A stretch of 64,000 nt of DNA, from positions 13,578,501 through 13,642,500 of the forward strand of contig NC_088320.1 of assembly GCF_910592395.1 (NCBI RefSeq). Direction: 5' to 3'. Within the stretch, counting starts at the first letter, position 1; each line of letters opens with the position of its first letter. Under the pieces are notes generated by a model. That model was not told the DNA's origin, made no database searches, and was given only the letters and a program-made list of their open reading frames with translations. Made by a program: the position numbers and the translations under genes. Shown here piece after piece: positions 7,143-32,496 of this stretch. The stretch comes from Lineus longissimus. Taxonomy: Eukaryota > Nemertea > Pilidiophora > Heteronemertea > Lineidae.

Positions 7143-8548
7143 AGTAAAGGATCCAACAAAGGTGGACAGTAGCCTGGAGTTGACTTTTCAATGCGTATTT
7201 CATAAGGTTGTCGCAAATGCTATTGTTTGGCATTATGATTACAGTGCATTGTCATCATTGTTATCATCTGTTTACAAAAGGTAAACACAAAAAAGTTCTT
7301 GAAAAAACCCGCACAGAAAGCAATTAAAGTTCAGGGATGGTGTTGTCGTACAGCAAAAATAAGACTACCTTATGTTGAAAATCACCCCTGGATAATTCTC
7401 ATTTGTGATGACTTTTGACACTGTCCCACTGTCCCACTGTAAGCTCAGAACACGGCTACCCTCCCAAGGTGATGGGGTTGGTCACACACTATCATTTCCT
7501 CAGAATTATACACTACCCACCCAAACAAGTCTTAGTTCGTACTACAACACTAGTGATTTTTGGTGGTATTTTTCCCGATATAAAAAAGTGTTTTGTGGAC
7601 CTTTTTAAAATGGTCGATTACGTCGTATATGAAGACAATTATGACGCATGATTGCAATAGTACTCAGCAGTCAGAAATACCTTACAACTAAGGTTTTCGA
7701 CCAAACTTTTAACTTTCATGATGCATAGTTTCATTTTGTGATGAGTATATCAGCGAAAGTGAAGTCTACTTGAGAAATCTGGGCACAGGCATTCGCACAT
7801 CATTATCTAAATAGTAACAGGTGCCAAAATGGAGAATTCCTGGACCGAGTGACATTTCAATATCAGTCTAGGAAACTCGGTTTGGGCATGTTGGAGTGGT
7901 AAAGATCAATGAATGAATCGTGAATGATTACCTGATAACAAACCAGGGCTATAAATAACAGGGCACCAAGTTGTTTAAGCTATCATGTCATGGTGATTGG
8001 AACCAATCATTTGGCCAAGTCATGCATACTTAGGATTGCTCCCCTCTGAGCTCGGAGTGATGGACTTTTGGTTGTGATTTTTTTAATCACTATCAACCTA
8101 AGGTTTAACAGTCTTCAAGTCTACGCCAAAAACAGGTAAAACAATTATATTTCTACTTATTTTGGCCTTACAAGGCATTGACATTCACAGGTTCATTTCA
8201 TTTTAACTGACCAGTATTTTTCCTACAAATTTCTTTAGAAAGAAGAAAAAACATTTGCAAATTTGTCTTTCCAGTATTGATCATAATACATTGCTATAAG
8301 ACTGACATGATAAATGTGTGCATTTTTACAACCAGTTGGAATAGAAACTTGCAAAAGGAGTCTTAGAGTAGTCTTATATCAGACAACGTCATAAGCAGTC
8401 AATTTTTTCAAAGTCAACTGAAAAAAACTGCACCAAGGAACATATCAATCAGTGATTATTTTCTTTTTCTCAAAAAGTTCTAGTTTAGAGTTGGACTAAC
8501 AAATTGACCTCTTGGTTATCATCCTAATGCAAGCCAATACAATACCCT
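7143..8548. other. Intergenic, nothing recognised
   Basis: AT-rich; frames at 7405-7651 overlap one another and resemble nothing known to me. No repeats matched within the window. Confidence 0.5.
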
Positions 8549-8996
8549 GAGACAAGACCACTAATGAATATTCATAGGTTGGAGGGTCGAGGCCTATCAA
8601 TTAGACGAGTGCATGTTTTTTACTCTCAAGTAAATGTTTGGAGAGGTATTGAAAAAATATTTGCTGTGGCAAGTCTACAGATATAAATAAATTGTTTGGT
8701 AAAAAAAATAATTTTGAATTTCGACAACCTGGCCATAGGGGGGGGGGGGGGGTTCAAATTTGGAGTGAAAATGGCCGATATGGGTAAAAATGTCCACTTG
8801 TGTCAAACTTGTCAACTTTAAAAAGAATTTCCGTGGTCAATCACCAATTTAAATCGCACCAGTTACTCGCAAGACTAACCCGTATATCATATCCGAATTT
8901 CAGTTTCACTACTTGACGCATTCTTTGATGCGTCGCGGTCAAACATTGACAATTTAACTACTAAAAGGCTTAAAAAATCAATTGTGGTCTTGTCTC
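8549..8996 (+). mobile_element. 445-bp MITE family, copy 1
   Basis: Perfect 13-bp terminal inverted repeats: GAGACAAGACCAC at the left, GTGGTCTTGTCTC at the right. Four further copies lie at 9538-9979, 10243-10685, 37553-38691 and 26760-27008. A G-run at about 8739-8752 is specific to this copy. Copies 3 and 4 show 4-bp target duplications (AGAG and ATGT). This copy has CCCT on the left but CATT on the right. No coding capacity. The 4-bp target duplication does not identify a superfamily by itself. Confidence 0.9.
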
Positions 8997-9537
8997 CATT
9001 TACACTACATTTTGGGTCAATTTAGTGAAAAATATGAATGTGCTCAAATCACTCCTATTCATTTAGAATATTGTATTGCTGATGATTTAAGGTCAAAACA
9101 AGCTAAAATAATGAGAAAAAAAACTTAATTTGACCCAAATATGAGTCAACCTACCCCCGGTCTAAGTTCGGTTTCATTTTTACAAGTCTTGTTGTGTTGC
9201 CATTCATTTTGTAATTTCTTTGAAACTACTTAGGCCTTGATTCTGAAAGTTGTGCCCTAAGCAGCAAAGATATTCCTAAATCACATCCTAAAGTTTCAGC
9301 TCCATAGCTTGCTTATTCTGGCCAGGGCTGGTCTTATGATTTTGCAGCAAAATCATGACTTTTTGTCGATTTTGTCCTCTTTCGTCGCTTTTGGCACAGT
9401 GTACCACTCTTTGAAATGTCTCTCATTTCTCCAAAAATGTCCAGATATGACTTTCCTTTTTTGGAGAGTTGTGGGATGTCATGTACATTAGTTTGAAAAA
9501 ATTCTCAAAATGTTAACCCCTGAAATGTACCTTCATT

Positions 9538-9979
9538 GAGACAAGACCACTAATGAATATTCATAGGTTGGAGGGTCGAGGCCTATCAATTAGACGAGTG
9601 CATGTTTTTTACTCTCAAGTACATATTTGGAGAGGTATTGAAAAAATATCTGCTGTTGCAAGTCTACATATATAAATAGATTGTTTGGTAAAAACAATAA
9701 TTTTGAATTTCGACAACCTGGCCATAGGGGGGTGGTTCAAATTTGGAGTGAAAATGGACGATATGGGTAAAAATGTCCACTTGTGTCAAACTTGTCAATT
9801 TTAAAAAGAATTTCCGTGGTCAATCACCAATTTAAATCGCACCAGTTACTTGCAAGACTAACCCGTATATCATATCCGAATTTCAGTTTCACTACTTGAC
9901 GCATTCTTTGATGCGTCGCGGTCAAACATTGACAATTTAACTGCTAAAAGGCTTAAAAAATCAATTGTGGTCTTGTCTC
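9538..9979 (+). mobile_element. 445-bp MITE family, copy 2
   Basis: Same 13-bp inverted termini as copy 1 and very similar throughout, but without the long G-run. Flanked by CATT (left) and CCCT (right), the reverse of copy 1. Confidence 0.9.
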
Positions 9980-10685: not shown

Positions 10686-10732
10686 AGAGTAGTGGTGAAA
10701 TGCCACCTGGTGAGAAACCTGAATAGTATCCT

Positions 10733-12467
10733 TTACACAAAGCGGCCAAAGATGGCAACTTGGATCAAGTTTAGTCTCTTGTCCACCAGGGGGCAGATAT
10801 CACCGTGGGCATGCTAAGGACAAAAATCGAAAAGCCTGTACTCCCATTTTACTTAATTAGGAATCAAACCAACTGCGTGTATCAGTTGATGCTGTGCATT
10901 GTGTTCACTTCGATGACTGGCGGGAGGAATTCAAACAAAGCACCTGGTTGATGGACCACAATGAACTCAAGAAGTGGGGATACCTCCTGGTACCTAAACC
11001 ACCTCATGAAAAGAGCAAACTAGCCAAGCAGTTGACGCAAACAAAACTAGATGAACTCTGGCGGATATCGTTTTCACATCTTGAGATGGAATAGATCAAT
11101 AGCCTAGAAAACAGGATCAAGAATGCGTATATCACAGCCAAATGTCTGAAGAACCCAGATGTGTGCCGCATCATGATTGCTGAAGGTGAAGGTCTACCTA
11201 AGAATGTTGATGACTACATCAGCAGTTACAAGCTGAAGTCCATGTTTCTGATGAATGCTGAGGATTTCCGTATGTCAGAGCAGAGTCTTAGTGAGATGGT
11301 GTGTAAGGTGTATGAGGACCTTGCTGACGCCCTCCACAAGGGTTTCATCCCTACATTCTTTGCACCAGGTCACAATGTCTTGGCGGGACTCAAATTTGAT
11401 GTTACCTAGAGTGCAAAAGTGGCCAGCATAATGAAAGCATTTGTGAGAAGACTGTGCAGAAAGGGAGAAGAAACCAAAGATGTTGGTGTTGATATTGAAT
11501 GTCAAACAGCAACGATGAAAGACAATGTAAGGACCTCACATGAAAAGATTGAGGACGCTGCAAATCCTCTGGCTGTTTCAATGGAGGATGAATCCATCAC
11601 AGAAGTGGAGGGTAGAGACCATGCTAGCAATTGCCTTGGAAAGACCAAGGACATCATAGATACAGGGGCAGTTCCACTGGAAACTATATCCACAGAAGTG
11701 GCCGAGGGGAGAGACCATGCCAGGAGTTGCCTTGGACAGACCAAGGACACCAAAGTTCCTGGGACAGTTCCACTCGAAACTGAATCCACAGAAGCGGAGG
11801 GGAGAGACCATGCCAGGAGTTGCCTTGGACATACCAAGGACACTAAGACCTTGGGACAGTTCCACTGGAAACTATATCCACAGAAGTGGAGGGGAGAGAC
11901 CATGCCAGGAGTTGCCTTGGACAGAACAAGGACAGCAGAGTCCCTGGGACAGTTCCACTGGAAACTATATCCACAGAAATGAAGGGGAGAGACCATGCCA
12001 GGAGTTGCCTTGGACAGACCAAGGACACCAAAGTTCCTGGGACAGTTCCACTCGAAACTGAATCCACAGAAGCGGAGGGGAGAGACCATGCCAGGAGTTG
12101 CCTTGAACAGACCAATGACACAGGAGTTCCTGGGACAGTTCCACTGGAAACTATATCCACAGAAGTGGAGGGGAGAGACCATACCAGGAGTTGCCTTGGA
12201 CAGACCAAGGACACCATAGATACTGGGGCCGTTATCCGAGAATTGGAATCTATAAATGAGAAATGGACATACCTCGCCCTTGACATCATCAGTGGTCAAA
12301 TGACCAGATGGAAGATGAAAGAAATTAGTATTCCAGACATTTTAGAGGGGATGATTTGCAGCTTTTTCTCCGAGCTGAATCTCCATCGAACGATTTTGAC
12401 TTCGATTAACTTTGACACTGCAGGGCCTTCATGTGCTACTCACTGTTCTTGTAAGAACAGTCACTGA
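10733..12467 (+). pseudogene. Decayed ankyrin-cGLR (Mab-21 domain) paralogue with repeat tail
   Basis: The remnant starts with a single ankyrin-like unit (LHKAAKDGNLDQV, stop at 10772-10774, then SLVHQGADI). It then jumps to the Mab-21/cGAS-like C-terminal half: SVDAVHCVHFDDW with the third catalytic Asp at 10888-10890, GYLLVPKPPHE, WRISFSHLE, a TAG at 11092-11094, then NAYITAKCLKNP, SSYKLKSMFL and a final region ending FDVT with TAG at 11407-11409. Homology to the tail of the intact gene continues past that stop (SAKVASIMKAF). A seven-unit, 31-residue repeat follows and is frameshifted once. The nucleotidyltransferase N-half carrying the other two acidic residues is absent. With at least three stops or frameshifts this cannot be a functional enzyme. 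It aligns with the C-terminus of the protein at 19132-22527, so it is a tandem paralogue. A possible acceptor (TTAATTAG, ending 10860) leaves room for a missing intron. Confidence 0.8.
11600..12235 (+). repeat. 93-bp (31-codon) minisatellite, about seven copies
   Basis: GAGAGACC recurs at 11709, 11802, 11894, 11987, 12080 and 12173, with a diverged first unit near 11610. Spacing is 93 bp except one 92-bp unit (11802-11894), which shifts the frame. The translated unit reads EGRDHARSCLGQTKDTK then a VPGTVPLETISTEV-like half. The 31-codon period shows it expanded while coding. It has no counterpart in the intact paralogue. Confidence 0.9.
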
Positions 12468-14991
12468 CTTATATATGATCAGAAAATCTTGAAAAAAACA
12501 ATGACCTTTGAGAACATATCTATTTAAATCACTGCCACTAGAATACACAGACAAGTTTCAACACCTTTCCTTTGATCCCACAGCATTGTGTGACTGAAAG
12601 CCATTAAATAACTTTAATTCATCTACAAACAGAACAGAATTCGATACAATAACAGAACCACAAAAAATTCTACAAAAAAATTCTCTGCATGTGCAGTACA
12701 CAAATATTATGGGGGAAAAGAGACAAGCGGTAGAAATAAGTTGGAGTCCGGTAGGTTCTGTTCACTTCTTCTAATTCAATTGACAGTTACAATTACAAAT
12801 ACAGATTGGAAGTCCAAATATGTGTGTTCCCAGTCTGGAGTCCAAACCTGAATTCCTCTACAATAACATTAGATTCACAAAGAAAACATGTAACTAACGA
12901 CATAAATTACCTAGAGACAGAAATACAAACAATGCAAAACAATTGTAAACAGTAACATGTTTTGGAGTGGCTAATCCTACATCTATAACATGCTTATTAA
13001 TACTAATCATAAAACCATTGTTTAAATGTAAATCCTGACCAAGCTGTGTTAAGTCATATCAGAAGGTAAAAGTAAAATTGGAGAATGATTGTGTTTAGAA
13101 ATAAAGAATAATGAACAAAATACATATCTGCCAAATCATCAAAGATTTCCACCATAAAAGACTCCTGTTGTTTTAAAATCAAATTCGCTCCTGCGAATTA
13201 CACGCTGTCTACAAGAGACATGATTAAATAACAGTTTAGATGAAATTACAAAATGAAGTCACTAAAGACGAAACCATATAAAAGTATAGATGAAATTGCG
13301 AAATGAAGTAACATGAAATTCAATAAGTGAACATAATTCTTCACACTATTCTATAGTCAAAATAGCTATATTGTGCACATAAACTCATCAAAATGAAAGT
13401 CAATTTTATGATTCATAATATCTTTTTCGAGGCAGATGGAAATAGTTGTGTCTTCAGAATATGGCCGGAAGTCCAGTATAAATGTCAAACGCAGATCAAA
13501 TCATTTCATTGTTCTAAAATTCAGTTTATATCCAGTGTCATGTGATGATAAAATTTACTCCATAAACTTAGACTTAGAGACATTCCCATCCTTTTTGATA
13601 AGGGTCAGGGTTATCACTACAGCTTTGAAACTGAACATCTACTACGCACAGCAAATTTAGGTAAGAGCAATTTTATAATTATTTTCAAAGGTTGGTTGAG
13701 GTTTTCCCAACAAGGTTATAATCAGTACAAAGACAAAGTTACTCAAAACCAAAATGCCTCTGTATGAAGCACCTAAGTGTGCACATTTATCCTGATGACA
13801 TAGCGGTGATTGGCACCTTTATAGAACTTACTAGAAGAATTGGTTGCTTTCCTCCAGGAAGTTCTAGATTTTTTGACTCGTTTGATTGGTGGTGAGGACA
13901 TAGATAATGAGCTTGTACCCTGCCATCAATCATTTGGTATAAATTCGATCTCTGTATGACTATCATCCCATGTCTGTAAACAATTTTACCACATTTATTG
14001 CCACTGTTGTGAGGTGGGAATAAAGCTTATGATTTATATGAGAAGTATTTTTGCCTTTTGTGATAGTTTAGAGTAGTTGTTTCATCCTGACTCATATTGT
14101 CAGCTCTGTACTCAGTATCCTTATGTCAACAGGACGTACCATTGTCATTTTGCCCCCTGCCCAAGACCCTGAACTATTAGCCGAGCCCCTCTGAGACAGC
14201 TGTGGTTTGCCAGACTTGGGTGTGACATTGTCCCTGTCTCATAGTTTGGTGAAGCCTTAACGCTCGACCCGGTTTTAAGCTACAATATCTTTATGGAACT
14301 AGTTTGGCCAATAAAGTTACTGGCTACGGAACAAAAGTTCCGGTGGACGTACGTAGCTTTAGTTGTTAAGAGTAGTTACCAGATTTCGGAGACAGTTCGT
14401 GTGAGGCGAAGTTTCGACCTCATTAGCATTGATGATGCATTTTGATATTGATACTGAGTATGCCAATAAGATCTCTTCGGACGATCCAGCCGAATTAAAG
14501 ACCAACCTTGGAATATGATATTTGTGTGGTTAATGTGTTTCTTATTTAAAGTTCCAGGTGGAATCCAAGAACTCAAGACTGTACTTCCTCCTCATACAGC
14601 TGCTGGCACTGGAACGATGCTGATTACCCCGAGCACGAGGACTCAAATAGGATCTGAAGGTAATATTTTTCTCTTTACTTTTCCTGACCCCTTAGAGAAC
14701 CTTACATGTTGTTCCCAATCAGACAATTACATTCGTGGCCGAAACTTTGGAGGAATACATTTCTGCTAAGTCATATCCAATTGGTTGTCCTAAAGTCAAC
14801 AAACATGTACTGGATTTCAACAATAAAAGGGACAATATAGGCATTGACAAACTATGTCGTAGCTTGGCAATTTTAAGTTCGCTTTCAAAAACGCATATCG
14901 CCCCTTCCACCAAACCAATTTCAAATCTCCGCGAGCTTGTTCCGAAGCATTGCTATGTAGTGCATAGCGATACATAGCAGGCCTAGACCGG
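12468..14991. other. Intergenic, one candidate orphan exon
   Basis: Mostly AT-rich DNA without frames of interest. The one stretch that looks exon-like is 14552-14659, listed separately. Confidence 0.5.
14552..14659 (+). other. Candidate internal exon, unknown protein
   Basis: A 108-bp GC-richer block lies between a pyrimidine-leaning acceptor (TTTCTTATTTAAAG) and a donor-like GAAG/GTAATA. One frame is open throughout and reads PGGIQELKTVLPPHTAAGTG and onward. A second frame is open to a stop at 14655-14657. I recognise no family and no neighbouring exon. Composition and splice-like borders are the only evidence. Confidence 0.25.
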
Positions 14992-15098
14992 CGGGCAGAA
15001 AATGCATGCTGCATACCGTCTGCAGACTGGGGGTTTTCTCATGAGTCAATAGAATCTAAGGTTTGGAATTAGGGGACCATATCAGTAGTTGCTTTGCG
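14992..15098 (+). repeat. Left arm of a long inverted repeat
   Basis: About 107 bp (CGGGCAGAAAATGCATGCTG and onward) recur inverted at 15806-15913 at high identity. The arms are 707 bp apart. The inner end motif (GGTCCCCTAATTCCAGA in plus sense) also occurs once more at 15764-15780, so the right side carries an extra partial copy. Confidence 0.85.
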
Positions 15099-15805
15099 CC
15101 AACTTTTTTTCAAAGTTTGTTTTCTTATATTTGAATTACCTGTGAATCATCTTGCAGGAAGATTTTTTTGGGTGTGCATGACAGATGACGTACTCAATAC
15201 AGAACATGTATATTGTATCGGCCTGTTGTGCCTCGTGCGCCTGGTTGATTGGCCGGCAAGGTTGGGTTCGTTTCAAAGGCAGCATTTCATGATAAAAAGT
15301 GCTGAATGACATGGGTAAATATAATTAAAGATAACAGAATGAAGAAACCCAGGGAACAGAAAACCATTGTATATCAAACACCCACCTTGACAGTTCTCCT
15401 CTGTCTCTTGATGTTAAGTGAAAATACCGGCCTCTTTGACATTCTAAACAGGTGTTGTTAGGCCAGATAAAAAATGTTTTCAGGCAAATGTTTATTACTA
15501 CAGTCCTGGTCACAAGATACATCCTAGCTGATAAGCATCATGTAGGCCCTACGTGCTAAATCCGTGCGAGTCACACATACATGTAGCGTGCCAGTGGATG
15601 CACTTGGTTCACAGTTAAAGGAATTTAGGCCTACACCCCAAATCGTGGTGTATCGCAAAGCCTGTTTGCACAACGGCCTAGATAATCTTTGTTCTACCGT
15701 TTGGCATATACCTGAAATGGCCTCTTATTTTTTAGTGTGAAAATCACATGGCAACTGTTGAGATGGTCCCCTAATTCCAGATCTAAATTTTGATACAGAA
15801 GTTGG
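15099..15805. other. Spacer of the inverted repeat
   Basis: No transposase or other gene is recognisable between the arms; short frames on both strands look random. Confidence 0.5.
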
Positions 15806-15913
15806 CTGAAAGGAACTGCTGATATGGTCCCCTAATTCCAGACCTTAGATTCTGTTGACTCATGAGAAAACCCCCAGTCTGCAGACGGTATGCAGCATGC
15901 ATTTTCTGCCCAC
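15806..15913 (-). repeat. Right arm of a long inverted repeat
   Basis: Reverse complement of 14992-15098 with a handful of substitutions. If the pair bounds a transposon, its termini would be near CGGGCAGAAAATGC, but I see no clear target duplication outside. Confidence 0.85.
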
Positions 15914-17727
15914 CGAGGCCTAGACCATGTATTCGCCGGGATTCTGGTCACACGGGTCGGTTTTGGGATAGAAGGGGTTGGGTTGGTTAGCAAGGACATA
16001 CCTGTAAACAAGCTAATGTTTATTTCAACGCTTTTGAAGGCCATTGTGGTCGTAAGCAAGTGATCGACCTCATTAACAACTAATTCCCGTGATTTTCAGC
16101 GGGTGCGTCCCGGTGTAATGTTTTTGAGTGTTTCTGTTTTTGAGTGTTTCCCCTCATTGTTTGGGAACGCTCAAAAATAGATTGACAAGTTTTTCTGTGT
16201 ATCCCCCTATTGAAAAGTCTTGGTCTCTCTAGCTGCCTATTGTTTGGAAACACTGACACATGGGAAACAACCACAGATGTTACACCGGCTTTAATTAGAC
16301 CGTGGTACGTACATCTCATTCATGGGTGATTATCATGGTTGGCACTGTATCGTAGAAGAAGCATAAAGATAGCTTGAACAATAGCATTCCGCGATGATGA
16401 GGTCACTGCAGCTGCTGCCCTCTATTTCCCCATCGCTGAATTACAGGCAATGTCGGACAAACATGCGGTTTCGTAATGGATTCAGGCTTTGTAACTAGGG
16501 CAGTTAGATTCAATCTGGCACATGTCCGAGTGTTGGAAATACTACATAATTGTTCTGAATATTTCTCTCTCTGACTCTATGGTATCATTCATGCGAAAAA
16601 CAATGCAGGGTCAAAGATAATTGACTTTGAAATAAGCTCAAATGCGTAGAAATAAGTGTCGATGTCCGACTGTCACGTGACTAAAACGTCATCAATATCT
16701 TATGCAAATGACCTTGTGAGCTATAAATAGTATCTTCGCGGAGTGCTATTTAGCAATGTTTCGTTTCATATCGCGCGCTCTCAGTCATAAAATGGCATCG
16801 GCACTTCTGATTACCGTCCATCAAGGCATGCATATAAGCATGTGAGATACGAACGATGAGGCCGAGGTTGCTGAAGTAGACTGGAAAAGAAAAGTAATAA
16901 TTACAAAGTGCCGAACGACTGCAACAACCTGAGCATTTCTGTGTGCCTCCTCAGTGTAGAAACGCACTGTTGTTGCTCAAATTTTACTTCGGAGTTCCGG
17001 ACCGTTTTTCTTTCCGACCTGCCCTCCCATGCCCAGCTCCTACGTAACTGGTATACGGAAGTGCTAGCATTGGCATTGAGGCGTCTGGTACGCCCGTGAC
17101 GTGACTGCATGATATGAAGTGGCTTCGGTAGAGTTCATCAATTTTTTCATTGTAAAAGCCTTCATTCCTTAGGGACTTCATTCGATTGGTTGACACTAAA
17201 ACAGTATGATATAACTGATTCAAACACATTCGACTGTAACGCAGCATTGATTTATATGTATTATATAATACCAAGCATTGATTAAAGACGACAATTTTTA
17301 AAACAAGCTATTGGTGAGGTAACACTCAGTTTTGAATATAGGGGGCTTTTGTAATTTGATTAGCCTTGACTCTTCCAAGGTTGGACTTATCTCACTGCTT
17401 CTGCGTGAAATAGTTCATTAAGACAAACGATTATACACTGGGCCTCATTTTCGAGACAGCGGTCTTAATTTCTTATCTTGATCTGTGCGACATTAAGATA
17501 TCGTCTTTCATTGCAGGCAAACTTGTAATCGCCTGGTAAAGCACTGACCCAACAAGTGATAACCGTCGCATGTGCTTTAAATCGCGGCTTTCACCAATCT
17601 AAATCGCTCGTTTGTGGAGCTGTTACTATTTTTTCTCGTGGACGAGAGATTCTTTTAACTCTCCGTTTTTTGCAGGATTATATCAAATTAATTGGACTTG
17701 TTGGACTTGTTGGACTGTCGTTATAAT
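15914..17727. other. Intergenic, one promoter-like site
   Basis: Contains the octamer/TATA arrangement at 16702-16729. Opposite-strand frames at 16901-17274 overlap and are not convincing. Nothing else recognised. Confidence 0.5.
16702..16729 (+). promoter_or_regulatory. Octamer plus TATA-box promoter candidate
   Basis: ATGCAAAT (16702-16709), the POU/Oct octamer, is followed 12 bp later by TATAAATA (16722-16729), a spacing seen in histone-type and other POU-driven promoters. Transcription would start near 16755. The next ATG (about 16756) opens only a 28-codon frame, so the transcript is not identified; it could be a first exon. The fusion gene starts 2.4 kb downstream on the same strand, but no link is shown. 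Confidence 0.35.
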
Positions 17728-18110
17728 AATATATAATAATGTCTAGTATTTGTATAGCGCTACTCAGAACGCATTGCTGTTTAAGCGCTATTTGTTGATT
17801 TCCACTCATCGCCACTGATAATGCCTCTCGAACAGCCAACACTTCAAGCGCTTCCTAAATGAGTCCTGATTGTCAATCGCAGTTAGTTCCGTCGGCAACT
17901 TATTCCACAGCCGTGCCGAGGACGCTGAGAAACTGCGATCCCCGTAAAGTGTCTTTGTTCGTTTTACGGCCAATTTCGAAGAACATTCGTCCATCGAACG
18001 CGTTGTACAAGGGCAATCCAGACATTTAACCAGCTGTTCAAGGTAAACTGGTGCCCTTCCATGTAATATTTTATGCGTCTAGTTGATGATTTTGTACACG
18101 TCGTTAGCAG
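17728..18110 (-). pseudogene. L2-type LINE 3' fragment
   Basis: On the minus strand the frame reads the last part of an L2 reverse transcriptase: THKILHGRAPVYLEQL, then DRSFSASSARLWNKLP and FRKRLKCWLFE, stopping at 17806-17808. A stop codon replaces an expected sense codon just before THKILHGR. The element then ends with AGCGCTATACAAA and an ATT-rich tail near 17728. It is a 5'-truncated dead copy. Its tail resembles that of the SINE at 40734-41020. Confidence 0.8.
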
Positions 18111-18183
18111 GTGGCAACATATTATATCATCGCAATTCTCTGCATATAAAGATGCTTCAACTGCGAAAATGGACTGCATTATA

Positions 18184-18968
18184 CAGTGCGTATCAACAAA
18201 AGGTAATCCAAAGTCAAGGGGTTAATATTCCAAGGCTATTTAGTTTCAGAAGCTACATATGGTCTACTAATAAAGAGGAGATCCTCAGATTTCCATTGAT
18301 GCAATTCTTGCATTATTACGGTCTCGCATGACCGAGTAAATTGTAATTGAAAAAGACGAGTTCAAATCGAAAAATTTCCAAGTTTGTGTAATCAGTGCAA
18401 GTTGAATGAATACGTTCAAATTGTACATTTACCAACTTAAAAAGATTAAAACAAACACGATTTTCTCATGAATTATTTGGCTTTATTCAGAGATCTTCTA
18501 AACTTGTATTTTATGCACCCACACTTTCAACATACCCTCCGCCTCTTGCAACACAAAGTTCACAGCGATAGAGCATGTCCTGAACTGCTTGTCTGATCAC
18601 TGCTGGATTCCCGCGTAAAACATCCACTTCGTGTTGAATTCGGCCCTCCGAGTCATTATGATCACGGGGTGGAGTCGCAAACACCTTGTTTTTCATGTAT
18701 CCCCAAAGGAAAAAGTGACATAGTGTGCGATCAGTTTGTAATCGTTTATTTCAATTCACCAAACTTGGACATTTTTAGATTTGAGCTCGTCATTTTCAAT
18801 TACAATTTACCCGGTCATGTGAAACTGCAATTAATGCAAGAATTGTATTATTGGAAAGCTGAGTATCTCCTCTTCATTAGTAAACCACATGTAAACCACA
18901 TTGTTAAACTAAATAGTATTGGCATATTAACTCCATGAATTTCGATTACCTTTTTTTGATACGCACTG
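18184..18968 (-). mobile_element. Tc1/mariner element with long inverted arms, internally deleted
   Basis: The ends are CAGTGCGTATCA and TGATACGCACTG, each flanked by TA (18182-18183, 18969-18970), the target duplication of Tc1/mariner. The arms continue as an inverted repeat of about 215 bp (18184-18398 against about 18750-18968). The middle holds only the C-terminal part of a transposase on the minus strand. The element lies about 160 bp upstream of the ankyrin-cGLR start codon. Confidence 0.85.
18511..18737 (-). pseudogene. Mariner-like transposase C-terminal fragment
   Basis: The minus-strand frame reads CHFFLWGYMKNKVFATPP, then QHEVDVL, YRCELCVARGGGYVE and a stop at 18511-18513. The FFLWGY.K.KV..TPP motif and the C...GGG.VE ending are the usual end of mariner/Tc1 DDE transposases. 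The DNA-binding N-terminus and most of the catalytic core have been deleted, so no active enzyme can be made. Confidence 0.75.
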
Positions 18969-19131
18969 TATTGTGAAAATGTTTGATTTCCAGCTCCCAA
19001 GAACAGTCCATGATGCCAGCCACACGGCCACAACTTGCTCCGTTCGATGCAGCAGCATTCGGTTATTTTTGGCTAATCAGATTCGTCCTGTCATTCTGTG
19101 AACTGGAGTACATATAAAATGCAAAAATTAC

Positions 19132-20520
19132 ATGGATTCCCTAATCATCGCCTCGATTATAGGAGACAAAGAGGTAGTGGATCTATTGATGAAAGCGGGG
19201 GCGAATATAGAATGTAAATACAATGGCGGGAATACTCCAATTATCATCGCCTCGATTAATGGACACCAAGAGGTGGTGGTTATATTGATTAAAGCGGGAG
19301 CGAATATAGAACATACCAACGATGAGGGAAGAACTCCTATAGGGTGTGTTTCTATTAAAGGACACAAAGAGGTGGTGGATCTATTGATTAAAGCGGGGGC
19401 GAATATAGAATGTAAATACAATGGCGGGAATACTCCAATTATCATCGCCTCGATTAATGGACACCAAGAGGTGGTGGATCTATTGATTAAAGCGGGAGCG
19501 AATATAGAACATACCAACGATGAGGGAAGAACTCCTATAGGGTGTGTTTCTATTAAAGGACACAAAGAGGTGGTGGATCTATTGATTAAAGCGGGGGCGA
19601 ATATAGAATGTAAAGACAATGGCGGATGTACTCCAATCATCATCGCCTCGATAAGAGGACACCAAGAGGTGGTGGATCTATTGATTAAAGCGGGGGCGGA
19701 TATAGAATGTAAAGAAAATGGCGGGAATACTCCAATTATCATCGCCTCGATTTTAGGACAAAAAGAGGTGGTGAATCTATTGATTAAAGCGGGGGCGAAT
19801 ATAGAATGTAAAGACAATGGCGGAAATACTCCAATTATCATCGCCTCGACTAATGGACACAAAGAGGTGGTGGATCTATTGATTAAAGCGGGGGCGGATA
19901 TAGAATATAAAGACAATTGCGGGAATATTCCAATTATCATCGCCTCGATTAATGGACACCAAGAGGTGGTGGATCTATTGATTAACGCGGGGGCGAATAT
20001 AGAATGTAATAACAATGGCGGGAATACTCCAATTATCATCGCCTCGACTAATGGACACCAAGAGGTGGTGGATCTATTGATTAAAGCGGGGGCGGATATA
20101 GAATGTAAAGACAATGGCGGGAATACTCCAATTATCATCGCCTCGGCTAATGGACACCAAGAGGTGGTGGATCTATTGATTAAAGCGGGGGCGGATATAG
20201 AATATAAAGACAATCACGGGAATATTCCAATTATCATCGCCTCGACTAATGGACACCAAGAGGTGGTGGATCTATTGATTAAAGCGGGGGCGGATATTGA
20301 ATGTAATAACAATAGCGGGAGTACTCCAATTATCATCGCCTCGATAAAAGGACACCGAGAGGTAGTGGATCTATTGATTAAAGCGGGGGCGGATATAGAA
20401 TGTAAAGAAAATGGCGGGAATACTCCAATTATCATCGCCTCGATTTTAGGACACAAAGAGGTGGTGGATCTATTGATTAAAGCGGGGGCGGATATAGAAT
20501 GTGTAGACAATGGCGGGAAT
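19132..20520 (+). repeat. Array of 14 near-identical 99-bp ankyrin-coding units
   Basis: Units are identical or nearly so at DNA level, including third positions (for example GAGGTGGTGGATCTATTGAT recurs in most). Units 2-3 (19225-19422) and 4-5 (19423-19620) differ at only 3 of 198 bases, a recent two-unit duplication. Units 15-21, up to about 21190, are diverged. The homogeneity creates a 361-codon open frame on the minus strand that is not a gene. Confidence 0.95.
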
Positions 20521-22527
20521 ACTCCAATCGCCATCGCCTTGGGTGAAGGACATAAGGATATAGTGGATCTATTGATTAAAGCGGATGCAATCATTGAAGG
20601 CAGTTACTTTCAAATCGACACTCCGATAGTTATCGCAGCTAAATTGGGATATGTTGACATTTTAGACGTTTTGTTGAAAGAAGGTGCTTGTTCCAGCAAT
20701 TTTCGTTATGGATCGATATTAAATATCGGTGCAACGTTTGGTCAACGACGGGTCGTTGAATATCTTTTGAGACGCGGGATGTCATTAGAAATCCGTGACT
20801 CGAAAGGAAACACCCCACTTCAAAATGCAATCATAAAGGGTCATTTCTCAGTGGTCCAATTCCTAATAAGGAGTGGAGCAGATACACACCCTTCGTCAGA
20901 GAGTATTATATATTCTGCTGCTTCGTGTGGCCATGCCGATATCGTGAAATACTTGGGAAGCAGGGATGCACGGAAGTTATTAGATTTGCCCAATGCCAGT
21001 GGGTGGTCGCCTATTGCCAAGGCAGTTTCAGGTGGTCATTTTCGGACAGTTAGACAACTTCATCAGCTTGGAGCTGACATGAACTGCAGTGTAAATGGAA
21101 AAGGACTGCTTCATCTAGCAGCTGAGTCCGGTTGCCTAGATATCTATCAATATCTTATCATCGCTGGGCTTGACTGCAAACGACTCAACTTTAATGGATT
21201 GAAGGCTTATGAATGCTTCCCCTTTCAATCAAAACTTAATTATCAAGCAAGCAACCGATTAGGACATTCCTCCGAACAAAGTCTCTCTTTCGTCATGTCG
21301 CGATTAAATGAGCAATATGCTACACCCGCGTATGGATACAAACTTTCAGAATTATCTGGTGTACTGGGACTAGGCAGCGTGAATATTATCGAGGGTGGTG
21401 TTTCGGAAACTATCATGAGGTTTGTAAGGGAGAAGGAGGTTGTTGAGGGCTTAGAGCTATGCGGAAGTTCGGCTGAGGGCACGAAGGTTCAGCTGCCTGA
21501 TGAAATGGACTTCCTTAGATTGGTAAATGCAAATCCTCTCTCTCGAAACGAAATGGTTGACACCTTACATGGATATAAGTATATGCAAGCTAGACAAATT
21601 AAGAAGAGGTTTTTATCAAGTAAATCACTCCATGAGTATGAAAGCCAAAACCTAGAATCTAGCGCAAAAGCCCAAGAGTCTAAAAAAAGCGGAGAAATCC
21701 TTTTGCAGGCAGTTGCTGGAGGAGGCAGTGCCAGTGTTCCTGTGACTATCAGATGGCCCGATGATAAACCTTCAAAACGCATTGTCTCAGATCATATAGT
21801 AACAACCTTACCTGTAAATGATTGGCCCGATGATTGGCAAGATGATTGGTCAGATTATGCACTACAGAAAGGAGAATCTGAAAGTGAGGTAACGGCGGAC
21901 GTTTGTGCTTATCAACGGACTGGATACACCTTATCTCAAGCTGATGCTAGAAGAGGATGGGCCAGTATTCCTGTAACTATCAGAAGGCTTGAACATATAT
22001 CATCCAGTCTCCTTATCTCTGTGGATATAGTACCGATATTTCATGTTGATGATTGGCCAGACGATGCTATCAAGAAGACCTGGCGAATGGACGAGGACAC
22101 CTTGAAGAAGAGTGGGTACAGGCTGGTCCTCAAACCGCCACACAAGGACAGTGAGTACGGACGGTTGCTACCCGAGGAAGACAGAGAAAGAATGTTGCGG
22201 ATCTCCTTCTCTCATCTAGAACCTGTCACAATCGCACCTTTGGATCCAAGAATCAAAGACGCATACATCACAGCAAAGTGTCTGAGGTCGCCTATGGCAT
22301 GTGGCGTTGTGATTAGAGACACCGACGGCGTCATACATTTCGTCATTCACTTCCTTACAAGTTACCTCCTGAAGACAGTCTTCCTCCATAACATAGACGA
22401 CTTCCTTGAGACAAACAGGAGCCTGCCAGAGATGGTCTACATCATCTACAGCCAACTTGAGGAGTACCTTGGCAAGGGCAACCTACCGTTCTACTGGCAG
22501 CCAAGCGTCAATCTGCTGAAGGTTTGA
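19132..22527 (+). CDS. Ankyrin-repeat / cGAS-like receptor (Mab-21 domain) fusion protein
   Basis: A single 1131-codon frame. Residues 1-687 form about 21 ankyrin repeats, the first 14 or so nearly identical 33-residue units of the form GGNTPIIIAS.NGH.EVVDLLIKAGADIECK. Residues about 735-1131 match the Mab-21/cGAS-like nucleotidyltransferase fold. They carry an activation loop (GSSAEGTKV, 778-786), the acidic pair in PDEMDF (E791, D793), the third acidic residue in SVDIVP (D965), then SFSHLE (1025-1030) and SYLLKT (1077-1082), as in the C-terminal lobe of cGAS. All three metal-binding acids are present, so it may make a cyclic or linear nucleotide signal; that is inferred. No cGAS-type zinc-ribbon insertion is visible. 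Residues 867-898 duplicate 944-975 without gaps, but with His888 where Asp965 stands. A conserved tail continues in another frame after the stop. The ATG is preceded in frame by KCKNY, which resembles the end of an ankyrin unit, and a stop lies at 19099-19101, so an upstream exon is possible. The fold assignment is firm; the function is inferred. Confidence 0.88.
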   Translation: MDSLIIASIIGDKEVVDLLMKAGANIECKYNGGNTPIIIASINGHQEVVVILIKAGANIEHTNDEGRTPIGCVSIKGHKEVVDLLIKAGANIECKYNGGNTPIIIASINGHQEVVDLLIKAGANIEHTNDEGRTPIGCVSIKGHKEVVDLLIKAGANIECKDNGGCTPIIIASIRGHQEVVDLLIKAGADIECKENGGNTPIIIASILGQKEVVNLLIKAGANIECKDNGGNTPIIIASTNGHKEVVDLLIKAGADIEYKDNCGNIPIIIASINGHQEVVDLLINAGANIECNNNGGNTPIIIASTNGHQEVVDLLIKAGADIECKDNGGNTPIIIASANGHQEVVDLLIKAGADIEYKDNHGNIPIIIASTNGHQEVVDLLIKAGADIECNNNSGSTPIIIASIKGHREVVDLLIKAGADIECKENGGNTPIIIASILGHKEVVDLLIKAGADIECVDNGGNTPIAIALGEGHKDIVDLLIKADAIIEGSYFQIDTPIVIAAKLGYVDILDVLLKEGACSSNFRYGSILNIGATFGQRRVVEYLLRRGMSLEIRDSKGNTPLQNAIIKGHFSVVQFLIRSGADTHPSSESIIYSAASCGHADIVKYLGSRDARKLLDLPNASGWSPIAKAVSGGHFRTVRQLHQLGADMNCSVNGKGLLHLAAESGCLDIYQYLIIAGLDCKRLNFNGLKAYECFPFQSKLNYQASNRLGHSSEQSLSFVMSRLNEQYATPAYGYKLSELSGVLGLGSVNIIEGGVSETIMRFVREKEVVEGLELCGSSAEGTKVQLPDEMDFLRLVNANPLSRNEMVDTLHGYKYMQARQIKKRFLSSKSLHEYESQNLESSAKAQESKKSGEILLQAVAGGGSASVPVTIRWPDDKPSKRIVSDHIVTTLPVNDWPDDWQDDWSDYALQKGESESEVTADVCAYQRTGYTLSQADARRGWASIPVTIRRLEHISSSLLISVDIVPIFHVDDWPDDAIKKTWRMDEDTLKKSGYRLVLKPPHKDSEYGRLLPEEDRERMLRISFSHLEPVTIAPLDPRIKDAYITAKCLRSPMACGVVIRDTDGVIHFVIHFLTSYLLKTVFLHNIDDFLETNRSLPEMVYIIYSQLEEYLGKGNLPFYWQPSVNLLKV

Positions 22528-22706
22528 AACTCAACATAGCCAAGTCTCATCAAGTCGCCAAGCTGATGACGGCAACCGTTGGTAGGATGTCCCGCCTGGA
22601 GCGTGGTGGAGAGAACCATGGTGATGATGCGAGGGAAGATGGGCCAAGCATTGAAGCCGCTGATGACGAGCCTGACATAGGTTGTTACATCGTCAGATTA
22701 GAATAG
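22524..22706 (+). CDS. Out-of-frame conserved C-terminal tail of the ankyrin-cGLR protein
   Basis: This frame overlaps the end of the fusion ORF by 4 bases and has no ATG (it opens at TTG within AAGGTTTGAAAC). It reads GLKLNIAKSHQVAKLMTATV, then an acidic end ..EAADDEPDIGCYIVRLE. The pseudogene paralogue shows the matching segment (GLKFDVT, stop, SAKVASIMKAFVRRL) in the same frame as its Mab-21 domain. So the tail was once continuous with the domain, and a one-base loss near 22517-22520 now separates it. Possible explanations are a true truncating indel, a polymorphism, or a sequencing error in the short G run. If it is an error, the protein is about 60 residues longer. Confidence 0.6.
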   Translation: MKLNIAKSHQVAKLMTATVGRMSRLERGGENHGDDAREDGPSIEAADDEPDIGCYIVRLE

Positions 22707-24017
22707 CCAGCAAGGTAACTCTCTTGGTCAATCCCAATGAAGACAATTAGCTTTAAAATTAATAATTCACTCATCTTCGCGTACATTGTATATTCCGAGA
22801 TGTCGGATATCAGAAAAGAGAATTTCCTGATGATAGATCATCTAGAATTCATTACAATTTATATCTAAACTTTTTGATGACGTTATATTATGTTCAAGAC
22901 ATGCTTAATTTTTTTACGACCTTAACCTAAATGTCCATGCTTGATATCATAGTTTCGTTTGTGAGTTCCATTGCGTAAATAACGCTAATTACAGCAAGTC
23001 CTTTTTAGGATGTAAAGACCATACTAGATTATAGCACAGCCGGTAGAAATAATTCTTTCATTGTCTTTGATTACAGTGACCAATTCCCCTCTTGGTTCAA
23101 AAATGCATATATACACTTGGTATTGAATGAACTATCTAACTACAATATCTCTCGTATTGGCCTACCATCCACCGAATAGATTCTTGGAGGGCTGGACAAT
23201 GATTTGTCGTGCCTGACTTAATTAAATCAAATACTGTCATGGTTTTTGGGGCTTTCTTTCTTTTGTCTATCCCTCAAGCATGCAAGGTGATGGCGTCACG
23301 TGAAACCACTTCATACACAATAAATATACAACCTGCCTGTGTTGATTAATCGCTTTCAGAAGTACAATGTGCCTGATATCAGTACGTTTATTTCCAGTAA
23401 TCTTCACCCCGATGAACACTTTGTATGCGATACGGATTCTTCGGTGTAACCACATCTATGGTTGTTCCCTGGCCTGCCCTGGCCCGGCCGGTTCAAACCA
23501 CGAGAGTGCATGTGTGCGAGTTGGGCCGACGCGACAGGCGCAGCGGTCGGAAGCGAGTCTCTGGCAGGATATCTCGGACTTTGGTTCGACATCGAAAGCC
23601 TCAAGTGCGTCAGGACCTTCAAAGCCAAGTGGTAGGGAATCTGTTCTTGAAATGACACCGGGCTCAAAACAGCTGCTATGTTGACTTCGAGAGAGAGAAT
23701 GGTGAAAGATCGTGTGGTGTACAAAGGAAAACAAGCCCGACCGTAAAATTTTAGAAAACTTCTGAAATTATTCAGACCCCCTCCACCTCTTACACCTCTC
23801 CGCTATTCAGATATGCAATTGCAAAACTGTAGACTTTCCGAGGTTGGGGACACATCACGGAGATGATATACCAAATGTTCACCACTTCTGAAAAAAAGTA
23901 GCAGGACTTTCAGATTTTGGTAAAAATGCCCCCCCCCTAATTTTCGATGATTTCTGAAGTTTTACAATGTATTTTCTACTTGCAACTACGAAATTGATAC
24001 AAAGAAGACACATTGGC
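22707..24017. other. Intergenic, nothing recognised
   Basis: AT-rich apart from a GC-richer patch at about 23460-23640, where overlapping frames are open on both strands. None resembles a known protein. Confidence 0.5.
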
Positions 24018-24119
24018 ATTGTTCATCCCGATTGAGTTGAATGTTGGATGGCATCCAACGACAATGCGCATAATATCTACAGGGGGCTTGGCTTACATAT
24101 CCAGACACTCTCAAATCGG
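24018..24119 (-). repeat. Interspersed repeat, copy 2 of 2
   Basis: Inverted match to 2839-2942 with few differences and one small insertion (CTGTAGA for CTAGA). Confidence 0.8.
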
Positions 24120-25333
24120 TATTATGACATAGGAAGTTGGATGTTGCACTCAATTCCTTTCATAATACTTATGAGTTACTTACACCCTTTGATATGCTGA
24201 CTGCATGGGTGAACAAAGGTATGGACTGGTATATCTTGTATTGACATGTTAACTTGTATTGATATTGTAATTGTATGAGGTAGGGTAGCTACTATAACCT
24301 TGATTCCACTATGTATAGACTTGTATAAATTGTATTGTCATGTATTGACATGTATAAACTTGTATCGACTTATATTGTAATTATGTGCGGTGTAACTTTA
24401 TATAATTATATGTGTCACAATATCATATGGTAGAAGGCAGAAGGCCTAGAGATTGCAAGCTGTTTGAAGCCAGTCTATTACTATCATAACATTATATAAC
24501 AAGAGAGTCACATTCATTATTTCCTATATTTTGTGAGTAACATTTAAGAGTGTGAAGCCTGGTAGGGCCTGTCACAAATTTTAAATGATCAAGTGATTTC
24601 GGTTTTGTGTACGCTTGTAACGACTCTCATTACAGAATGACTGCAAACTTGTGGATGGATATAGATTGAATACTCGTTAGGGTGATGCTATACATGCTTC
24701 CCGAAATTGGTGGCTTGCATTGGAACTAACTTTTTCCCCCTTGTCCGTCATTAAAGGCATTCAACTGTGTTGGTCAACCATGACTATCTCCTTTGTCCCT
24801 CCACCATAAGGCCTAGTTTCCCCTTATGACATCACTATTTCGGACACTCAGCGCCCCATTTCTGGAAAGGTGTATAGTGCCTCCATGTTGCCAGTCAACA
24901 AGAATTCATCCAAAATATCCACAAACTGATAAAAGTGTTACTCGGAGAACATAATTGTTTGCGTTGCCACCGAACAATATGTTATATAGACAAGCAAGTG
25001 CTTTTACTTCAATTTTGTGCAGAAATGTTTTGTGTACATGTGCAGTACATATAGCGTTTTAGATAAAATCACCCGACAGTCTCTTTCATATCTGCCATTA
25101 TCTGGTCCGATTTTTTGGTGTTTGAAAGAGTTACGGTGTTCCTAATACATTAACATAATAAAGAGTGACTATATAGTTTCACCTTAAGGGTTGACCATAG
25201 GTATCGCCATATTGTCGAGAACTCCAAATCCTAAAGCCTTTAGAGCTCTTTCAAAACATAGTGAATGCTCATTTCAAGGGCTGGAGTCTGTTCTTTGTTT
25301 TACAGAGAACAGCTTCCAGTCCAGGGTTTTAAA
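24120..25333. other. Intergenic with a degenerate TTGTATTGACATG repeat
   Basis: 24226-24385 has several imperfect repeats of the words ACTTGTATTGA and GACATGTATAAACTTGTAT. Nothing else recognised. Confidence 0.5.
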
Positions 25334-31092: not shown

Positions 31093-32496
31093 CTACTCCA
31101 TTTCGTGGAACTGCAAGTCTTCTTCGTCACTAGAATTTTCAACATCTAGCTCATCCCTATCCCTCTCAATCCCATTACCACCAATTAGTCCTGCAGCCCC
31201 GAATGCACGATCAGTGGCATTTGGAGCCACTTCGTTCCATGCATAGCCAACAATTTTCACGACATTTCTAAGAGATATTCGGGGACATTGTCCATCGTCG
31301 TTAGTATTGTTGTTCTTCCACAGTTTCCACATTCGCATAACAACTGACTTAAATCCATGTATGACAGTTAGGTCCAAAGGCTGAACCAAAGAGGTGCAAC
31401 CAGCGGGAATGTAATCCACTATCAATCCTGCTTCTGTAACAACATTGCTGAAGTCTTCCGCTAAATGTGGACGAAATCTGTCTAGAATTAGCATATTGCT
31501 TGCTGGTTCGGCATTTCCTACGATTGGTAAGAGGACAACGTTCAGCCATAGGTCTAGCGTTGCCGCATTCGCCCAACAACTTCTTGAAGATGTTACCCTC
31601 ACATTGTCTGTAATGTCATTGGCCCGCAATGCTCGGATTTCACGCAGAAACCCCGGCTCTCTAAAGGTTATCTGCGCCGGGAGTTTAAGTCCATTGGTTC
31701 CGATGCCCAGCGTGACAGTGCATCCTTGCCTGTGGTTTCCGCGACTCGTTCGTATATTCACGTTTTTGGTGCCCTTCTTTTCAGCTTCTTTGTATCGTGG
31801 TGGGAAGTCAAGCTGCATGAACGTTTTGTTCATGTTTAACAGGGTAGTTACATCCAAATCTCGAACAGTTTCCTGCACACGTCCCTGGAATTCTGCAACA
31901 CGTGCTGCTGCATCCGCCGGTAATGTTGACGAGTTGGTCGTTGATTTTCTAAACGTAATATTTTTCCGTTTCATGAATCCCGTCACCCATCCATTGCTTG
32001 ACTTAAAATCATGGTGCTGAGGCCTTTTGCATATCAGACTGTCCCTTTCTGCATCTGGCCGATTGCCAAACCAGTCTCTAAACATTGTTTTCGCATAGTT
32101 TCTTAGATCTGATCTAGAGACAGGTAATCCTAATTCTCTGGTACCCGCAAACCCATGGTACACCTGCTGTTCAACCTCTGGCCATCGTTCATCGTGATCG
32201 TCCCGAACTCTCCTCGCATTTGGGATCGCTACGAGTTGTTCAAGCAGGACATCTAGCGTCCGTATCCAGTCCGTTAGAGTCGACGTTGGGATATGATACC
32301 GTCGCGCATATTCCGTAGCATCCAGTATCCTGCCTTGGGTGATAAGGCCCTCACAATCCAGTACATGTCTCACCTTTTCCTGAACGGTGTAGCTACGATG
32401 CTTCCTTGGTAATGGTACATTTCCATCACCTTGCTGCATAGCATAGGCAGCATAAGCTGTAATTATCACAACGTTCACTAATGTTTTCTTCATCAT
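31093..32496 (-). CDS. Pogo/Tigger-type (CENP-B-like) transposase-derived protein lacking the first catalytic Asp
   Basis: An intact 467-codon frame. Residues 35-80 form a psq-type helix-turn-helix (YTVQEKVRHVL..TLTDWIR), 104-180 a CENP-B-type HTH (WPEVEQQVYHGF..NGWVTGFMKRKN), and 214-390 the DDE_1 core. In the family the core starts with NMDET; here it reads NMNKT, so Asp is replaced by N223. The other two acids are present: D339 in MLILD and D375 in SLVQPLD. The C-terminus is acidic (EDEED-like, 451-467). The first 19 residues look like a hydrophobic leader and may not be used, since M20 (MQQGDGN) is a plausible start. The frame has no stops although catalysis should be lost, which suggests either a very recent death or a domesticated DNA-binding protein. 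No pogo inverted termini are visible; instead a perfect 14-bp direct repeat flanks it. GC content is above its surroundings. Confidence 0.85.
   Translation of the reverse strand: MMKKTLVNVVIITAYAAYAMQQGDGNVPLPRKHRSYTVQEKVRHVLDCEGLITQGRILDATEYARRYHIPTSTLTDWIRTLDVLLEQLVAIPNARRVRDDHDERWPEVEQQVYHGFAGTRELGLPVSRSDLRNYAKTMFRDWFGNRPDAERDSLICKRPQHHDFKSSNGWVTGFMKRKNITFRKSTTNSSTLPADAAARVAEFQGRVQETVRDLDVTTLLNMNKTFMQLDFPPRYKEAEKKGTKNVNIRTSRGNHRQGCTVTLGIGTNGLKLPAQITFREPGFLREIRALRANDITDNVRVTSSRSCWANAATLDLWLNVVLLPIVGNAEPASNMLILDRFRPHLAEDFSNVVTEAGLIVDYIPAGCTSLVQPLDLTVIHGFKSVVMRMWKLWKNNNTNDDGQCPRISLRNVVKIVGYAWNEVAPNATDRAFGAAGLIGGNGIERDRDELDVENSSDEEDLQFHEME

Follow-up and report, generated by a model that had tools for sequence, protein, structure and literature searches.

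A gene at positions 19132-22527 of a 64,000-nucleotide stretch of the Lineus longissimus genome (contig NC_088320.1; hereafter the window) encodes an ankyrin-repeat array and a cGAS-like nucleotidyltransferase domain in one reading frame. With moderate confidence, sequence comparisons lead us to regard it as a recently duplicated, slightly damaged member of an ankyrin-cGAS-like family that has expanded in L. longissimus and whose diversifying members are likely innate immune sensor enzymes. The fusion is real and its architecture is known; its setting, a large and fast-changing nemertean family, is new.

Ankyrin array and cGAS-like domain of the window gene

The frame runs from the ATG at 19132, the first ATG downstream of an in-frame stop at 19099, to the TGA at 22527 with no internal stop (1131 codons). 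A matching start position is used by the RefSeq paralogue P0003. The original prediction, made from the sequence alone, described this single frame and the joining of about 21 ankyrin repeats to a Mab-21/cGAS-type domain, and both were borne out. In Pfam, ankyrin families were found above cut-off, with a best E value of 4.6e-153 and 498.7 bits for Ank_2 in 12 stretches. Mab-21_C exceeded its curated cut-off (Table 1), which places the protein in the Mab-21/cGAS superfamily. The predicted motif positions were likewise all correct (GSSAEGTKV at 778, E791/D793, D965, SFSHLE at 1025, SYLLKT at 1077). The prediction passed over the C-terminal frameshift, the 68-residue core insert, the gene family and the broken second member at 10686-12233. 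Repeats and enzyme also share one frame in the RefSeq models of paralogues P0004 and P0014; P0002 consists of the last repeats and the enzyme only. Proteins P0002, P0004, P0009 and P0014 match examined genomic loci letter for letter.

A profile built from eight domains, the window's included, matched pig cGAS (4jlx, 1.3e-15, over 309 profile positions) and a cGAS-like receptor (cGLR; 8gjw, 5.7e-14), with the three acids in register in both cases. Predicted structural homology to known enzymes of the cGLR and CD-NTase (cGAS/DncV-like nucleotidyltransferase) type, one of the criteria of Li et al. 2023 (PMC9980059), was found. Together with the structure model, these matches support a cGAS fold with all three acids for the window domain. 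The cGLR motif in the same paper reads h[QT]GS [X8-20] [DE]h[DE]h [X50-90] h[DE]h. The window copy has the GS, the three acids and a first gap of 11; it departs from the literal motif by a Cys before GS and by a second gap of 169 versus 50-90. The second gap lies inside 50-90 in eight of 29 loci. An acid spacing of 172 distinguishes the window protein from Cv-cGLR1 (8gjw) and vertebrate cGAS (4jlx, 7fui). Inspection by eye of the aligned region of the window domain revealed no zinc-thumb motif of cGAS.

Family size, selection and growth of the enzyme core

A genome search with the window protein gave at least 104 matches (41 of 453 candidates scored). Mab-21_C (PF20266) was found at 66 places in the genome, 45 of them in open frames of at least 800 codons. 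From these long frames 29 were examined, namely the window, 22 loci from the protein search and six more. Each of the 29 has the GS motif, both acids of the pair and the third acid, together with ankyrin repeats (12 by Pfam, 17 by alignment to the window protein's array). Automatic RefSeq names reflect the repeats only: the L. longissimus proteins called ankyrin-3-like, ankyrin repeat domain-containing protein 50-like and tankyrase-2-like are members of this family.

The window subfamily comprises 14 copies (the window and loci L009-L021). Thirteen form a clade with a support of 100/100; L021 was not in the tree and was placed by sequence. One frame runs through array, enzyme and tail in nine of the 14, the longest being that of L018 (2789 codons, about 69 repeats by length). 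L021 has a 2444-codon frame with extra copies of a core segment and a second partial enzyme core, of which RefSeq P0009 (316 amino acids) represents the last part only. Judged from the blocks shared with contig C17 (Table 1), the copies are products of segmental duplication with later gain or loss of pieces. The query covered 14001-24500 only, and the true extent of the shared segment may exceed it. The Lineus clades also take in five metagenome proteins with the same domain arrangement, which requires three changes on well-supported branches. The fusion is therefore probably older than the Lineus expansion, with individual placements unsure owing to long branches. Protein searches beyond the worm returned 8, 4 and 11 proteins, the worm's own included (one search scored the best 7999 candidates); these are so few that we make no statement on other animals.

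Selection was assessed from codon-wise minimum change counts over 13 subfamily copies (L021 left out), five of which are damaged elsewhere but have open domain frames. Residues 965-1116, in the C-terminal lobe, are conserved across the 13 paralogues, with 21.5 nonsynonymous and 30.5 synonymous changes (ratio 0.19, p 1.5e-8 against neutrality). For residues 802-861 the counts were 55.5 and 7.5 (ratio 1.87), or 44.5 and 2.5 without the C8 copies L019 and L020. This segment differs from residues 965-1116 (p 3e-7) and from residues 697-801 (ratio 0.67; p 0.012), p-values that are optimistic because its bounds were taken from a sliding window.

In the array, 298 units of the window subfamily conformed to a strict pattern. 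Their entropy was highest at position 3, followed by positions 14, 1, 10, 5, 33, 2, 13 and 32. At six positions used in libraries of designed ankyrin repeat proteins (DARPins), the ratio of nonsynonymous to synonymous diversity (pN/pS) was 1.85 versus 0.56 elsewhere; the unit entropies were already known before this test. With a looser pattern (308 units), pN at the six positions was reached by none of 5000 random position sets. These figures support a variable binding surface on the array, and for the pooled window subfamily only they suggest positive selection on it. The original prediction took the array for a sensing or scaffolding module in cis. The concentration of variation at the usual ankyrin ligand-binding positions fits recognition but is no proof of it. 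The nearest neighbour of a repeat came from its own gene in 136.7 of 298 cases, versus 28.1 expected by chance, a likeness within genes as expected from growth inside the array.

The enzyme core of the window copy contains a 68-residue insert. It belongs to a tandem duplication: residues 842-901 recur as residues 919-978 with a 42% match (E 7e-12), a His of the first copy being aligned without gaps to the catalytic Asp. In 12 of the 14 subfamily copies, 172-174 residues separate the third acid from the second; L019 has a spacing of 104, and L021, with its further segment copies and second partial core, has spacings of 250 and 387. Among 15 loci from other subfamilies, 14 have spacings of 84-130 and L029 has one of 328. 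L029 carries a different repetitive insertion at the same place, between the acid pair and the third acid. Its placement suggests that this loop tolerates repeats. As read from the alignments, the enzyme core itself grows by tandem duplication in one subfamily. Model confidence is low over the insert (block means 21-40 in P0002; about 43-50 over most of it in the window model). The insert is not exceptional in this respect, because most of the P0002 nucleotidyltransferase core scores low as well.

Weighing the evidence and the surroundings of the gene

Several results weigh against a diversifying family of sensor enzymes. With respect to the domain these are: (i) the single window sequence as query had a Mab-21 chain as its sole match (0.0014); (ii) the window structure model is only moderately confident (mean predicted local distance difference test score 59.3); (iii) the Mab-21 nucleotidyltransferase model PF03281 gave no hit, either to the whole window protein at thresholds up to E 1 or to the domain alone up to 0.1. 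PF03281, which matched two of 11 relatives scanned up to 1e-6 (L021, L036), serves as a detection aid; profile and fold matches are the stronger tests. With respect to selection, the excess at residues 802-861 is weak against neutrality (p 0.044, bounds set post hoc), the insert changes in a neutral-like manner (35 nonsynonymous, 8 synonymous, ratio 1.26, p 0.71), and the whole-domain ratio of nonsynonymous to synonymous rates (dN/dS) exceeds 1 in 11 of 66 pairs among the other copies (median 0.79). The contrast at the six ankyrin positions also shrinks in other samples: 1.50 versus 0.52 with the looser pattern (ratio reached by 109 of 5000 random sets), 1.54 versus 0.72 within the window gene (1416 of 5000), 1.34 versus 0.51 within L018 (346 of 5000), 1.54 versus 0.99 in subfamily C12 (1414 of 5000) and 1.32 versus 0.65 in subfamily C16 (567 of 5000). 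High nonsynonymous change at these positions is partly typical of any ankyrin array. Finally, damage is seen in five members of the 14-copy subfamily: a frame change inside the array in L012 and L017, a stop inside it in L016, loss of its start in L015, and a break at the tail in the window copy.

This last break also limits the claim of an intact catalytic triad made in the original prediction. E791, D793 and D965 are present and in register, but the copy is not intact: owing to a frameshift near its end, the last 62 residues conserved in paralogues lie in a different frame, open to a stop at 22706, and the copy is left without their final helix. In the P0002 model the lost part is a helix at residues 663-688 (block means of 86, 83 and, at its end, 60). 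The window copy is probably impaired, to judge from the frameshift, and with its last helix out of frame it is a poor choice for an assay. It could quite possibly be a young pseudogene with working relatives and no useful product, although we do not expect so. All 13 other subfamily copies read the tail in the enzyme's frame, its helix is confidently modelled over most of its length in P0002, and four further copies are damaged. Set against this are the lack of any other stop or frame break across 3.4 kb, dN/dS values of the window versus 12 other copies (0.48-0.77) inside the range of the rest, and the almost unchanged out-of-frame tail, which means that the break is either very recent or an error. 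We consider it rather doubtful that the gene is intact and that the frameshift arose as an error of assembly or polishing. In favour of this, the tail reads through undamaged in its own frame and, according to the genome report (PMC8593623), the assembly received one round of short-read polishing, in which we infer that reads could be misplaced in multi-copy regions. The same report gives HiFi reads as the basis of the assembly, and the break lies outside any long homopolymer; both speak against an error.

Three further alternatives concern the product. It is unlikely that the core insert is an intron whose removal gives the mature enzyme a near-normal acid spacing: in-frame GT...AG choices would remove approximately the inserted length, and the insert changes at a neutral-like rate, but such GT and AG pairs are common, the sites fit the splice consensus poorly by eye, and RefSeq models P0002 and P0003 keep the insert as coding. 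Improbable, too, is that the domain is a Mab-21-like structural or developmental protein, not a signalling enzyme, with the array as a scaffold. Mab21L1-type proteins share the fold, and messenger synthesis by them is not established (Li et al. 2023, PMC9980059); the departure from the literal cGLR motif and the neutral-like insert point the same way. This is countered by the retention of the three acids in 29 of 29 loci, and by copy-number growth and fast-changing surfaces, which we infer to be unusual for developmental genes. It would be very surprising if the array sensed a nucleotide messenger and the protein served in relay or feedback. Ankyrin chains of RNase L do occur among the structural matches to a paralogue array, but their Z scores are close to those of many unrelated ankyrin chains. 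In RNase L an ankyrin array senses a nucleotide messenger, an ankyrin sensor being joined to an effector enzyme in nucleotide-based immunity. The Lineus proteins resemble it in combining such a sensor with an effector enzyme; they differ in the enzyme, and the match between the arrays does not stand out from many other ankyrin matches.

Nine RefSeq proteins were compared with the loci, and eight were placed; P0010 had no counterpart among the loci compared. Only P0003 and P0011, both isoforms X2, show a gap of whole repeats: P0003 equals the L011 frame minus exactly 231 residues (7 repeats), and P0011, all 888 residues of which match L024, equals the L024 frame minus exactly 132 residues (4 repeats). 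Exactly one GT-AG placement among 45 possible (P0003) and 30 possible (P0011) exists, at AG|GT within repeats. AG|GT occurs at the same codon boundary in 286 of the 298 units of the window subfamily, so that a splice between any two units would remove complete repeats and keep the frame. As evidence for splicing the GT-AG fit is weak, because annotation favours canonical junctions, and an allele with fewer repeats would give indistinguishable RNA. With intra-array splicing, fast-changing ligand-binding positions and tandem growth in the enzyme core, one locus might give many sensor variants of varying array length, a combinatorial immune receptor on a cGAS-like enzyme; from the sequences at hand we think this improbable.

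Table 1. Coordinates of features in the window (position 1 is its first nucleotide)
Feature	Positions	Strand	Evidence
Open reading frame, 1131 amino acids; ankyrin array and cGAS/Mab-21 nucleotidyltransferase domain	19132..22527	+	Translation of the open reading frame, Pfam
Ankyrin-repeat array, about residues 1-685, about 21 units of 33 amino acids; end approximate	19132..21186	+	
14.6 near-identical 99-bp units, 85% matches; 14 AG|GT sites exactly 99 nucleotides apart, same codon phase	19144..20584	+	Tandem Repeats Finder (TRF)
Predicted cGAS-fold domain; model residues 44-439 = protein residues 736-1131	21337..22524	+	Structure model
GSSAEGTKV, nucleotidyltransferase GS motif	21463..21489	+	
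Catalytic acids E791 and D793	21502..21510	+	
Residues 802-861, fast-changing among 13 paralogues; bounds post hoc	21535..21714	+	
68-residue insert relative to L019 (residues 883-950), part of tandem duplication	21778..21981	+	
Catalytic acid D965	22024..22026	+	
Mab-21_C (PF20266), residues 1074-1130, 29.0 bits versus cut-off 24.1	22351..22521	+	Pfam
Conserved C-terminal tail, 62 residues, in another frame than the open reading frame (frameshift)	22515..22706	+	
Frame of 361 amino acids overlying the repeat array	19128-20213	-	
Segment with blocks in common with family copies on contig C17; identity of direct blocks outside the array about 88-98%	14001..24419	+	
Second family member, broken, related to L033 (93.5% over 10806-11716); internal deletion, stop codons, 93-bp tail repeat	10686..12233	+	

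Within the shared segment, positions 22810-22922 have a full counterpart in L013, L016 and L018, a nearly full one in L014 and a partial one in three C8 copies, and are skipped in the alignments of L010, L011, L012, L015 and L017. A retrogene origin was rejected, as flanking blocks between 14001 and 24419 are common to copies on another contig. Unexpected Pfam hits to the array (EPSP synthase, Response_reg and others) had no qualifying stretch and were set aside as chance matches on repeats. The broken second copy lacks the array and the first half of the enzyme, and a 93-bp tandem repeat at 11598-12227 is its tail repeat. L033 itself carries one 31-residue tail unit and the start of another past the enzyme domain, up to the end of the examined stretch.

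Just upstream of the window gene lies an inverted repeat resembling a small DNA transposon (arms 18181-18386 and 18760-18971, about 212 bp, 83.5% alike); matching arms stand beside several family copies. Beside the copy in L015, a 760-codon frame (7621-9900, plus strand) looks by eye like DNA polymerase B of a large DNA transposon. The window further contains an open frame with a reverse transcriptase domain (5301-7088, plus strand; PF00078, 4.1e-26; a retroelement), a 467-residue open frame with Tc5-type and DDE_1 transposase domains (31093-32496, minus strand) and a single-frame rhodopsin-type G-protein-coupled receptor of 344 residues (62420-63454, minus strand; PF00001, 1.9e-18).

Known systems and biological meaning

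The original prediction knew of no characterised protein with this architecture; ankyrin-cGLR fusions were, however, already contained in Li et al. 2023 (PMC9980059). In that survey 87% of cGLRs stand alone and some carry ankyrin or tetratricopeptide repeats; its catalogue includes fusions, for example in the coral Stylophora pistillata, with the same repeats and a cGAS-like core in one protein. The Lineus family differs from them in its array of up to about 69 units in the window subfamily (L018), its at least 29 loci and, in one subfamily, its tandem duplications between the acids. Nemertea and Lineus are not named in the main text of that paper, and the word "ankyrin" does not occur in the accessible main text of the survey PMC10732462. 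Literature searches on nemertean cGAS or Mab21 gave no nemertean match among the 10 papers listed of 90, and no paper was found on the L. longissimus genome and ankyrin. For ankyrin with cGLR, cGAS-like or Mab-21, only PMC9980059 was recognised, most other candidates having been judged without full text. No cGAS is reported for Trichoplax in the accessible part of a placozoan paper.

Intact family members would act as cytosolic sensors. Their repeats may bind a protein or other ligand through the quickly changing surface positions; binding would place or free the enzyme, which could then make a nucleotide messenger from nucleoside triphosphates. Because one STING-like exon is present in the genome, the likeliest messenger would be a cyclic dinucleotide read by STING, and the family possibly acts through STING. 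PF15009 (STING) was found at one place (27.4 bits versus a cut-off of 27). The 57-residue piece alone gave 3.7e-7, and its listed PDB matches, the best 60 of 75, were all STING, which makes a STING-like gene likely. A point against this route is that the two neighbouring open pieces had no STING match, so that only one exon was recognised.

Filters based on motif spacing could miss enzymes of this kind, in which tandem duplications have widened the distance between the catalytic acids. In the best-known sensors of the cGAS-like type, it is the enzyme that binds nucleic acid. NLRs (nucleotide-binding, leucine-rich-repeat receptors) and plant receptors use repeats for recognition, and the Lineus arrays would be closer to such use. 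At least 29 loci behind long, changing arrays in one animal suggest a second route by which recognition enters nucleotide signalling; intra-array splicing, if true, would further diversify the receptors of an animal that lacks antibodies.

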